From an uncultured Atopobiaceae bacterium (GTDB lineage: Bacteria > Actinomycetota > Coriobacteriia > Coriobacteriales > Atopobiaceae): a DNA stretch of 11,233 nucleotides. Of the stretch, positions 6,636 through 10,812 are shown one piece after another. The notes below the pieces were generated by a model that was given only the letters and a program-made list of their open reading frames with translations, searched no databases and was not told where the DNA came from. A program made the translations under genes and the position numbers. Position 1 is the first letter of the stretch, and each line of letters starts with the position of its first letter. Location: contig CALUJT010000047.1 of NCBI GenBank assembly GCA_944321005.1, forward strand, positions 1 through 11,233, read 5' to 3'.

Positions 6636-6732
6636 CGCAATCGTCCCCCGGGCGGTGCCGCCGTCGGCGTCGCAACAGGAGCCCTTCACGCCGTCGGCGC
6701 ACGGCGGGACGGTTAGCGAGGCCAGGCTCCTT

Positions 6733-6951
6733 CGAGGTTTGGCGCTTCGTGCGATGTAGACGGGAACCCGTGCGGGGTTTGGCTCTTCGTGCGATGCGAT
6801 TTTGGAGGTCCGCAGAGCAGGCGAACTACAAAACCCCAGTTGGCTCTTCAGACGGAACTTCCGACGCCCCATTTTTCGTAAAAAACGCATCGCACGAAGG
6901 GGCAAACCCCGCACGGGTTCCCGCCTGCATCGCACGAAGGGGCAAACCTCG
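6733..6951. repeat. 219-bp inverted repeat with 66-nt arms and internal 21-nt units
   Basis: Arm 6733-6798 and arm 6886-6951 are reverse complements at 60 of 66 positions, separated by an 87-nt spacer. Each arm has two copies, 40 nt apart, of a 21-nt unit GGTTTGSCNCTTCGTGCGATG, plus a small ACGGGAACCCGT-type palindrome between them. That makes four unit copies in all, two per orientation. There is no transposase and no clear flanking target duplication. It could be a MITE-like element, a REP-type double palindrome or a very long terminator-like hairpin after the ABC gene. Because the arms mirror each other, both strands show the same false peptide. Confidence 0.8.
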
Positions 6952-6964
6952 CAGAGGCGCCGTG

Positions 6965-8868: not shown

Positions 8869-8979
8869 GATAACTAAGTGATAAGTAGAAGGCAAGTAAG
8901 AACCGGCGGGAAAGTGCAGGTAGAGAGGTTGCCGGTTCCACGGAAGGGGTCGTTTTGTTCCTGAGTGATAAGTAGAATG
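8869..8979. repeat. 111-bp direct repeat, downstream copy (A)
   Basis: Identical in length to 10490-10600 and equal at 106 of 111 positions, in the same orientation. It begins 10 bp after the stop of the AlbA_2-type gene, in gene direction. It holds 11-bp units at 8868-8878, 8879-8889 and 8890-8900 and an isolated TGATAAGTAGA at 8966-8976. The promoter-like pair is TTGCCT (8890-8895) and TATCGC (8867-8872) on the minus strand, 17 bp apart, so the -10 is worse than in copy B. Only this copy has GAACCGGC (8900-8907) and GCCGGTTC (8931-8938), which can pair and might help end the upstream transcript. Confidence 0.9.
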
Positions 8980-8988
8980 GTCCCGCTC

Positions 8989-10455
8989 CTATGCCCATGC
9001 GGGAACATAACGTCGGTACCGTGCGCCGGCCTCGCCATCCTCCTCCTTTATGAGTCCGGCGTCGCAGCACTCCCTCAAAAGCCGCGAAATTGCGACCATG
9101 TTCTTCTTATCAGACGGAAGACCGAACCTCTCGCGGAGGCTGCTATTATTCGCCGCCTCGCTCTGGGCGTACATAAGGCACGCATGCCAATAAGCCGCAT
9201 CCATTCTCTCGCGGCGCGTCATCCGCTCGTAGCCGCTTCCTGAATAGAGGGTGACCTTGGTTCCCGTTTCCTCGCTACTTTCGATACATGGTGCCATCAT
9301 GTGTGCTTCTTCACACGCGGCAACCACGCGATCCCAGCCCGTTCCACCCTCCTCGCAAAGATCCATCTGCCTTAGCAGGCCGACGAGGCGATTGTTTCGA
9401 GTCTTGGGAAATGCATTGAGGACCTTGTTGAGCGGGATGAGGCTCGCCCCCGGATTCGAGAACTCAATTCTGTTCTGATAGATAGCAACAAGCGGTCCAG
9501 AGTTCGTAATGGTCAGGTCTTGATGTATCACCGCATTTGCAAGCAGCTCACGAACCGCACTCCTCGGGTACTCATACACAACTCTCCGGAATGCCCCGAC
9601 CTGCTCATCACGCGCAGAGATGCTAGACATGATATGCGCCTCGGCCTTAGGCAGAGCCAGAGCATACCCCTCGTTAAACTCCTGGTCATCAACGATATCG
9701 ATGCTCCCCTTTCCTTGAAAGCGGACCACGCGCAGAACCCGTTTTCTCAAACCAGGGAAGTCCCTAAGCCGGCGGGATATCAACAGGGCCCCGAGGTTTG
9801 TTATGGAGAATCTGCCGTTGTCCTGTTTGCGGACTATATCCTGCTCAGCAAGAAACGGGACGGCAGCCTGGTACGACATGGGGAAGCGCGCACCCATCAA
9901 ATCAAAGAAGGCCTCGGCATCCAAGAGGTCAGACAGGTCGTCCATCTCGAGGTCAGACAGCGCCAGACGCTCCTCAAAGTCCGAGCGCTGCAGACGACGC
10001 CAGAGCTCGGCTTCCCTGCTAGACCCGGGCACCAGCTCTGTCGTGCTGCTCCCAACGCGAATGTAAGCACGCTTTTCAAAGTAAACGGGCTGGCCGACTG
10101 CCGGACGTATTATCGCAACAACAAAATGCAGGCCGTCATGCTCGATCGTATGGAAGTCATAGTTTGCATTTGGGGACAGCATTCGCTTGAGCCAGATCTG
10201 AAGATCTTGGTTGCCCTTGGCCTTATGGGCAAGCGGGCTGAACTTTGTGCCCACCAAAGCATGCGTGTCGTCCGCTACGCCCCAAAGCTTATAGGCAGCC
10301 TCACGCCCATGATAGGCGGCGGAATTGGCTAGAGCAGAGATGTCTTTGCCTATCCTCTCGCGGTCATTGTTCGACTCCTTGAACTCAATCCACTCCGTCT
10401 CGTCGGGATAGCCGACAAGCTGATACAGGAGTTCCATCGGGTCTGCCTCGGCCAT
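8989..10455 (-). CDS. AlbA_2 (Schlafen-type) / GHKL-ATPase-like putative transcriptional regulator
   Basis: This 488-residue protein starts with an AlbA_2/Schlafen-type nucleic-acid-binding domain (about 15-145; EWIEFKES at 21-28, then IGKDISALANSAA). The central and C-terminal part fits the ATP-binding family often called divergent AAA_4/HATPase_c_4: RELLANAVIHQD (302-313), NRIEFSNPG (328-336) and EEGGTGWDRV (368-377). The last about 60 residues look like a winged helix (RERFGLPSDKKNMVAISRLL, then DAGLIKEEDG). Family members are annotated as ATP-binding or RNA-binding regulators; their true role is mostly unknown, and some lie in defence or mobile regions. The start ATG 10453-10455 has GGGGGAGGAG directly upstream; ATG 10435-10437 is an alternative. 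The gene is visibly poorer in G+C than its neighbours and is enclosed by 111-bp direct repeats, which suggests transfer. A promoter made of tandem 11-bp units lies just before it, which suggests self-control (inference). Confidence 0.85.
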   Translation of the reverse strand: MAEADPMELLYQLVGYPDETEWIEFKESNNDRERIGKDISALANSAAYHGREAAYKLWGVADDTHALVGTKFSPLAHKAKGNQDLQIWLKRMLSPNANYDFHTIEHDGLHFVVAIIRPAVGQPVYFEKRAYIRVGSSTTELVPGSSREAELWRRLQRSDFEERLALSDLEMDDLSDLLDAEAFFDLMGARFPMSYQAAVPFLAEQDIVRKQDNGRFSITNLGALLISRRLRDFPGLRKRVLRVVRFQGKGSIDIVDDQEFNEGYALALPKAEAHIMSSISARDEQVGAFRRVVYEYPRSAVRELLANAVIHQDLTITNSGPLVAIYQNRIEFSNPGASLIPLNKVLNAFPKTRNNRLVGLLRQMDLCEEGGTGWDRVVAACEEAHMMAPCIESSEETGTKVTLYSGSGYERMTRRERMDAAYWHACLMYAQSEAANNSSLRERFGLPSDKKNMVAISRLLRECCDAGLIKEEDGEAGARYRRYVPAWA

Positions 10456-10477
10456 AACTCCTCCCCCATATCCGCAA

Positions 10478-10521
10478 TGATAAGTAGATGATAACTAAGT
10501 GATAAGTAGAAGGCAAGTAAG
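10478..10521 (-). promoter_or_regulatory. Promoter and four-unit 11-bp iteron operator of the AlbA_2-type gene
   Basis: On the minus strand, TTGCCT (10511-10516) and TATCAT (10488-10493) are 17 bp apart, a good sigma-70-type promoter with a start near 10481 and a leader of about 25 nt. On the plus strand the same span divides exactly into four 11-bp units: TGATAAGTAGA (10478), TGATAACTAAG (10489), TGATAAGTAGA (10500) and AGGCAAGTAAG (10511). The units therefore cover the whole promoter on one helical face. Another TGATAAGTAGA lies at 10587-10597. This layout fits a repressor operator, most simply for the gene's own product. Confidence 0.65.
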
Positions 10522-10600
10522 AAGAGGCGGAAAAGCGCAGGTAGAGAGGTTGCCGGTTCCACGGAAGGGGTCATTTTGTTCCTGAGTGATAAGTAGAATG
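10490..10600. repeat. 111-bp direct repeat, upstream copy (B)
   Basis: Matches 8869-8979 at 106 of 111 positions with no gaps. It differs at a CC/GA pair, a G/A, a T/C and a G/A. It holds the promoter and three of the four tandem 11-bp units, plus the distal unit 10587-10597. Recombination between the copies would remove 1621 bp containing the whole AlbA_2-type gene. Confidence 0.9.
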
Positions 10601-10601
10601 T

Positions 10602-10620
10602 GCTCTTCCGCGAGAAGAGC
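10602..10620. terminator. Small hairpin between the right-end fragment and the repeat module
   Basis: GCTCTTC (10602-10608) pairs with GAAGAGC (10614-10620) around a 5-nt loop. It lies 36 bp after the stop of the regulator fragment in gene direction and next to repeat B. There is no T-tract, so terminator function is uncertain. Confidence 0.35.
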
Positions 10621-10656
10621 CACGGCGCGGAAACGCCTCCGGCGCCTACCCTATTA

Positions 10657-10812
10657 CTACTTCGTACGGACGAGGTGGTAGGCGTTGGCGAGCTGCGCCT
10701 TGGTGCAGGGTTCCCCCTCGTGCTCGGCAACGTAGAACATGATCTGACGCTCCGTCGGGGTCAGACGCTTGTTGGAGCGGATGGCGTGACATCGCCCTTC
10801 CCTGTCACTGCC
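10657..10812 (-). pseudogene. Fragment of a winged-helix regulator, no start codon
   Basis: The minus frame encodes 51 residues that look like real protein: RLTPTERQIMFYVAEHEGE, then PCTKAQLANAYHLVRTK, then a stop at 10657-10659. The first part resembles the first helices of a winged-helix regulator. The ending resembles the tail of such proteins, so the middle (recognition helix and wing) seems deleted. No ATG, GTG or TTG opens this frame after the TGA at 10813-10815. The frame is the same as that of the sortase-like gene before it, separated only by that stop. It may be a deletion remnant, possibly linked to arrival of the neighbouring module. Small size keeps confidence low. Confidence 0.4.

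Follow-up and report, generated by a model that had tools for sequence, protein, structure and literature searches.

A repeat-flanked and apparently losable gene for a Schlafen-type protein in Atopobiaceae and their relatives

The repeat-flanked locus

The window, by which we mean the whole stretch of 11,233 nucleotides analysed here, contains a pair of direct repeats, termed R, with one gene between them (Table 1). The two copies, designated R_up before the gene and R_dn behind it, are 111 nt each, align without gaps at 95.5% identity (106/111) and start 1621 nt apart. The recomputed identity confirms the repeat pair described in an initial annotation, which had also called the enclosed gene lower in GC than its surroundings; GC content is 56% in the gene vs 64% in the flanks. 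When the 2.24-Mb draft genome was searched with R, the two window copies were the sole matches at E ≤ 0.001, and the next two matches were weaker (E 0.2 and 2.6). By eye, the gene-side array of R_up has one unit more than the array of R_dn, and the last two bases of the promoter-like sequence lie outside the 111-bp repeat.

Table 1. Features of the R-gene-R locus, in window coordinates.
Feature	Position	Strand	Basis
Gene for SLFN_AlbA_2 / GHKL-type ATPase / winged-helix protein, 488 aa	8989..10455	-	Pfam; AlphaFold2 model; PDB fold matches
R_up, upstream 111-bp copy (gene orientation)	10490..10600	-	repeat comparison
R_dn, downstream 111-bp copy, orientation as R_up	8869..8979	-	repeat comparison
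Gene-side 11-bp array, lying in R_up and extending slightly beyond it; TTGCC / TTATCA units	10478..10522	-	by eye
11-bp array in R_dn, counterpart of the R_up array; unit at the -10 position is TATCGC	8869..8903	-	sequence
Promoter-like TTGCCT-17-TATCAT at the gene-side edge of R_up, made of array units	10488..10516	-	consensus scan only
Outer array unit of R_up, single	10583..10600	-	by eye
Outer array unit of R_dn, single	8962..8979	-	by eye
TCTACCTGCGC core, middle of R_up	10535..10547	-	by eye
Core in R_dn, similar to TCTACCTGCGC	8914..8926	-	by eye

Two other stretches of the window were recorded in passing. Beyond R_up, at 10620-10770, lies a stretch resembling a regulator-like gene that is longer at the equivalent place in the genomes G084 and G095, so that the window copy looks shortened by comparison. 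At 6725-6960, two inverted arms of 74 nt, 89% complementary and 77 nt apart, are members of a MITE-like paired inverted repeat that is present in many copies in the window genome, where 25 contigs carry 81 matches to it at E ≤ 0.001, with pairs often spaced by about 160 bp.

The encoded protein

Pfam models SLFN_AlbA_2 (E 1.7e-16, 61.3 bits, curated cut-off 25.3) and HATPase_c_4 (E 1.4e-15, 57.4 bits, curated cut-off 26) both matched the 488-aa protein, the former in agreement with the AlbA_2-type assignment made initially, the latter an addition to it. An AlphaFold2 model has a mean pLDDT of 91 and yielded fold matches in the PDB. Judged by sequence position, the Schlafen triad corresponds to E19, E24 and D62, with the spacing of 5 and 38 residues found in E205/E210/D248 of rat SLFN13, and among 81 aligned rows it is conserved in 80 (E19), 80 (E24) and 74 (D62, with N in 6). 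The protein is thus likened to the Schlafen-type tRNases (SLFN13 and the SAMD9 tRNase domain) by the positions of its putative triad, and differs from them in that the SLFN-type domain is joined to an ATPase and winged helices. The SLFN/AlbA_2-GHKL protein DIP2311 (PDB 3lmm) is among the closest known systems, by likeness of the protein itself. Proteins of the AlbA_2/Schlafen type are widespread in bacteria, for the most part with no known function. We regard the window protein as probably DNA-binding and possibly nucleic-acid-cutting.

Searches of the unit's one gene for a transposase- or recombinase-type domain returned none, Pfam giving only the two domains above and NCBIfam no match, in line with the earlier remark that no integrase or transposase is present. 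The PADLOC anti-phage models did not match the window protein, and two relatives gave weak partial matches.

The repeat-flanked arrangement in relatives

Of 140 family genomes, 32 contain a homologue at E ≤ 1e-20. Named genomes were scanned as well, and the best 80 of 504 relatives were taken as loci; their hosts are Coriobacteriia, Bifidobacterium, Bacillota, Spirochaetota, Synergistota, an archaeon and others. Comparison of 700 bp upstream with 700 bp downstream (blastn, E ≤ 1e-4) revealed direct repeats around the gene in 38 of these best 80 loci, with a repeat of at least 80 nt in 33 of the 80; among the loci with at least 250 bp of sequence on each side, the count was 36 of 72. The 38 include two loci with array matches of only about 36 nt (L099, L108), one with a match of 49 nt (L046) and one pair of near-identical records (L058/L059). 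At gene-sized spacing elsewhere in the same loci, repeats were found in 16 of 812 control placements, a difference that rules out chance as the source of the window repeats. The repeat-flanked arrangement is therefore a family trait, not a one-off.

On a quick protein tree of 77 rows (SH-aLRT support only), the gene is repeat-flanked in 18 of 22 rows of a first coriobacterial clade, in 8/8 rows of a second coriobacterial clade (one row being without a named phylum) and in 7/9 bifidobacterial rows, or 33 of 39 rows over the three actinobacterial clades. The remaining 38 rows, four of them coriobacterial, include three that are repeat-flanked.

Anatomy of the repeat

The sequence of R varies between loci and its design, by eye, is constant: one to a few copies of an approximately 11-bp motif, a middle of roughly 50-70 bp, and two to four further copies in the same orientation. 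The motif types track clades (by eye). Cores like TCTACCTGCGC were seen by eye in the middle of many coriobacterial Rs, and this core is also found outside the R-gene family. Periodicity was scored by counting, in 260-bp flanks, 7-mers that occur again without mismatch at a lag of 9-13 bp. At a threshold of three, arrays were scored upstream in 29 and downstream in 46 of 81 loci, as against 138 of 4075 controls; the best lag was nearly always 11. The flanks of the window fall below this threshold (1 upstream, 0 downstream) because its array units vary. In Bacillota and other non-Actinobacteria, arrays occur mostly downstream only, directly behind the stop codon, where they typically comprise TTTAACTTGCCGGTAACTTGC or a near variant, twice, about 70 bp apart.

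A consensus scan that took in 31 of the 36 repeat-flanked tree rows detected a promoter-like site within 130 bp upstream of the gene in 11 loci (controls 63/3582). Ten of these matches to the promoter consensus lie at -58 to -69, at the gene-side edge of R_up, in loci of the first coriobacterial clade; in these ten the -10 element is an array unit, and the -35 element is an array unit in about half and otherwise stands just before the array. The -10 element has a different base in place of its final T in all nine alignable downstream copies, partly because the repeat ends there. By these sequence features, R looks like the control region of the gene itself. The initial proposal of a promoter/operator duplication around a regulator is thereby supported in part, by the overlap in one clade of the 11-bp array with a sequence matching the promoter consensus.

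Limits and spread of the unit

Two loci of the window's genus, L056 and L057, are 74% identical over a stretch whose ends coincide, to within some 20 bp, with the outer edges of R_up and R_dn, and their available flanks gave no further blastn match at E ≤ 1e-15. The Rs of these two loci, only 53-62% identical, lie inside the homologous unit at different places. The annotation had also considered that the gene might be a cassette, and the end of homology at about the outer R edges bears this out as far as the existence of a unit is concerned.

The five members from the window's genus occupy three places of the protein tree, one for the window, one for L041 and L044, and one for L056 and L057, and the tree neighbour of the window protein is an Olsenella record from another genus group. 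This scattering of one genus, together with a patchy distribution, supports the view that the gene may spread horizontally between species. Among the 120 best homologues listed (protein clusters), 34 have a longest contig of 1530-1760 bp, approximately the length of the gene with two Rs, and the next 230-bp bins hold 7, 6, 4 and 5 of the 120; this excess could reflect either assembly breaks at R or circles. Three relatives reside in viral contigs, none on a small contig.

A scan of 20 neighbouring proteins at 14 loci showed restriction genes adjoining three of the eight non-actinobacterial loci: a type I system at L073, a DNA methylase with a ResIII-type helicase at L118, and GmrSD at L088. 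None was found beside the other five (L076, L087, L090, L103, L108), nor beside any of the six coriobacterial or bifidobacterial loci, whose neighbours are ArsC, AAA/DUF4143, a sodium symporter, DUF4012, a peptidase, MerR and proteins without a match.

Sites with a single repeat

In the window the unit lies behind an ABC transporter gene that is present in 31/31 genomes of the genus. At the same site G095 carries one R and no gene, and G084, the nearest relative (95% identity in the ABC transporter gene), carries neither. No R was detected there by blastn at E ≤ 1e-3 in the 27 other genomes whose loci were compared; G094 was without the locus. G091 has another single R of the window type elsewhere and no gene homologue at E ≤ 1e-20.

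A second site lies between an ArsC-family gene and a right-hand neighbour that we take to be CutC-like, and its state was assigned in 24 of the 31 genus genomes. G098 and G107 carry R-gene-R at this ArsC|CutC site. Nine genomes (G112, G091, G108, G111, G087, G099, G110, G100 and G101) carry one R and no gene, and in none of the nine was a gene homologue found elsewhere at E ≤ 1e-20. In eleven genomes the two neighbour genes overlap and R is absent, and G106 and G102 hold other inserts. The gene to the right of the site is a different one in G107 and G110. In G112 and G091 one single R joins the two flanks: it continues the left flank as R_up does and leads into the right flank as R_dn does. 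Empty sites with one R, which the initial annotation had recommended looking for, are thus found both at the window site (G095) and at the ArsC|CutC site (nine genomes). Since such gene-free sites exist, the relatives do not all carry the gene and both repeats at the same site, the pattern that had been named as speaking against a deletable or movable gene.

A tree of R from nine ArsC|CutC genomes broadly agrees with the arsC tree, with some weak nodes; the Rs of G098 group with that of G112, and the Rs of G107 with those of G087 and G099. On the arsC tree (9 genomes, again with weak support at some nodes), fewer events are needed if the gene was gained twice, each time at a single R already present, than if it was lost five times. 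Loss is still preferred over gain, with moderate confidence: in each R-gene-R the two Rs are of the type that the local single Rs have, and no such match is expected of a gained copy. To account for the single-R sites, loss of the gene with one R left behind suffices, and comparison of these sites upholds the deletion part of the original suggestion that the repeats may recombine to delete the gene or release a circle. The ends of the unit are direct repeats, and the flanks of the empty sites are too diverged or rearranged to define a target duplication.

Two further observations concern the ArsC|CutC site. In G106 (L154, 1317-1540) it holds a different array, reverse in orientation, whose units are GGTTATGCGCA and whose core is GCGCAGGTAGATG; this may be an R-like element of a second type. 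In G102 (L155) it holds an unrelated insert of about 1 kb, which by eye we take to contain an ORF6N-type gene, and the site may be an insertion hotspot.

Concerted evolution of the two copies

Within a locus, R_up and R_dn are 71-99% identical (30 loci). In 25 pairs of related loci picked by the analyst, R is 31-77% identical between loci, below both within-locus values in 25/25 pairs. At the shared site of G098 and G107, R identity is 88 and 93% within and 60-63% across the genomes, and the gene is 79% identical. The likeness of R within loci could have arisen either by gene conversion or by repeated loss and regain.

Interpretation and alternatives

We favour, at a probability of about 0.58, an explanation in which R-gene-R is a one-gene accessory unit that is autoregulated, is lost by recombination between its Rs, and has its R copies homogenised by gene conversion. 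R would be the control region of the gene, built of approximately 11-bp direct-repeat arrays around a short middle, and the encoded protein, with its Schlafen-type nuclease-like, GHKL-type ATPase and winged-helix DNA-binding domains, would read the arrays, as suggested by its winged helices, by the way the array overlaps the promoter-like site and by motif types that follow clades. A promoter at the gene-side edge of the upstream R would be the place at which the protein probably regulates its own gene, and the downstream R appears to be a second copy with a spoiled promoter. Because the R copies are long direct repeats, homologous recombination between them could remove the gene and leave one R, as the comparison of sites supports; gene conversion would keep the two copies alike, consistent with their concerted evolution; and the gene would move between species, as the tree and the patchy distribution indicate. 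Counted against this reading are the finding of the promoter-like site in only 11/31 loci, the part that the end of the repeat plays in the -10 difference, the window flanks that fall below the array threshold, and the smaller number of events that two gains need on the arsC tree. That the protein acts in defence or stress response is a guess prompted by the Schlafen-type domain and by the restriction genes beside 3/8 non-actinobacterial relatives. The retention of two R copies across deep clades suggests that R_dn may have a function of its own.

The best placed of the alternatives, itself unlikely, is that selection maintains R_up and R_dn as a pair of operators that serve in looping or insulation around an autoregulated gene, recombination between them being a meaningless side effect. 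It fits the conserved design of R, its retention in most rows of the three actinobacterial clades, and the downstream array as the most widely shared part of the loci; on its own, however, it leaves the concerted evolution and the nine single-R genomes unexplained.

Ranked behind it, and improbable in our view, is a self-moving one-gene element, whose SLFN-type protein would cut at the R arrays (at the ends or at a circle junction) and move R-gene-R, or a circle of gene and one R, to new sites, single Rs included. Such an element would account for the ends of L056/L057 homology near the outer R edges, the preserved spacing and residues of the triad, the many sites and hosts, and the two gains as the fewest events on the arsC tree, as well as for the short contigs, which assembly breaks would equally produce. 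Against it, the unit's gene lacks a recognisable transposase- or recombinase-type domain in Pfam and NCBIfam, no target duplication was defined and no circle was seen, non-actinobacterial members mostly have arrays on one side only, and the relatives in viral contigs are not matched by any on a small contig. Doubtful, and placed lower again, is a stronger form in which the SLFN/GHKL/winged-helix protein acts on two ends of 11-bp arrays to excise or copy the gene, the single R serves as both footprint and landing site, and array and specificity change together by lineage, which would make the unit a minimal mobile element of a new class in Actinobacteria.

The preferred reading, of a losable rather than a self-moving gene, can be set beside known elements. 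LTR elements have promoter-bearing direct terminal repeats, recombination between which leaves a solo LTR. R-gene-R resembles them in its promoter-like direct repeats and in its single-R remnants, nine at the ArsC|CutC site and one at the window site, and differs in lacking a reverse transcriptase and integrase (Pfam), in its array-type repeats and in its one SLFN/GHKL/wHTH gene. In an integron gene cassette, a single gene is followed by a site that lies immediately after its stop codon, and the non-actinobacterial members likewise look like a gene plus R; in contrast to integrons, R-gene-R has no integrase, and arrays of different genes were not seen. The passages on restriction-modification gene complexes in two papers (PMC4978471, PMC3031569, citing Nobusato et al. 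2000) describe direct repeats that are thought to arise on insertion and to be able to recombine, and insertion with long target duplication is proposed there for restriction-modification genes in Helicobacter. As far as those passages go, the likeness is that genes lie between direct repeats that could recombine, and the differences are that R looks like an array region of the element itself, with the same design at different places, and that the unit has one gene only.

Applied to the present unit, insertion with long target duplication would make R host DNA that was duplicated as the gene inserted, an explanation that we consider very improbable. The single copy at some empty sites, the length of the direct repeats (about 100 bp) and the position of some kin beside restriction systems agree with it. 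The array design shared across the family, the place of R inside the L056/L057 unit and its adjacency to promoter-like sequence argue instead that R belongs to the element, not the host; the absence of R from G084 and from the eleven ArsC|CutC genomes also speaks against a duplicated host sequence, with some doubt left by flank divergence. That the structure is an assembly artefact of the window's 294-contig draft is refuted by independent genomes that carry it on long isolate contigs, e.g. Olsenella sp. Marseille-P4559 (1.3 Mb) and Gordonibacter chromosomes.

No description of the R-gene-R arrangement was found in the titles and abstracts of the open-licence papers that the searches listed, and we classify it as a repeat-flanked, losable gene rather than a new transposon. 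The finding ties a large group of AlbA_2/Schlafen-type proteins to a defined DNA site, recognisable by its 11-bp arrays, and to a footprint, the single R, in which earlier losses or landing sites are recorded. This opens binding, autoregulation, deletion and mobility to direct testing. Should the protein prove to drive recombination, a Schlafen-type domain would here be the basis of a transposition-like system.

Other repeats at related loci

Several related loci contain additional repeat structures. At L056, an array of the GTGTACACAA type with a GCGCAGGTAGATG core (9610-9780) directly precedes R-gene-R and perhaps represents another type of R-like element. The same locus has a third copy of R about 650 bp behind the gene (11483-12360), with no family gene between; by eye, R and some 85 bp of the flank that follows look duplicated. 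At L007, in G058, 37 bp of window-type R (92%) lie at a contig end, and the homologue that G058 itself carries has an R of a different type. Downstream of the gene at L072 and L092 are tandem units of about 72 bp, in at least 3 copies, each opening with pairs of the TTTAACTTGCC type and CRISPR-like in look. Finally, the core CGACCTGCGGTTYTTCTCG occurs genus-wide (e.g. at L180, L200 and L202) in many intergenic elements with paired motif arms, and in G105 such arms accompany 10 of its 11 pattern matches.
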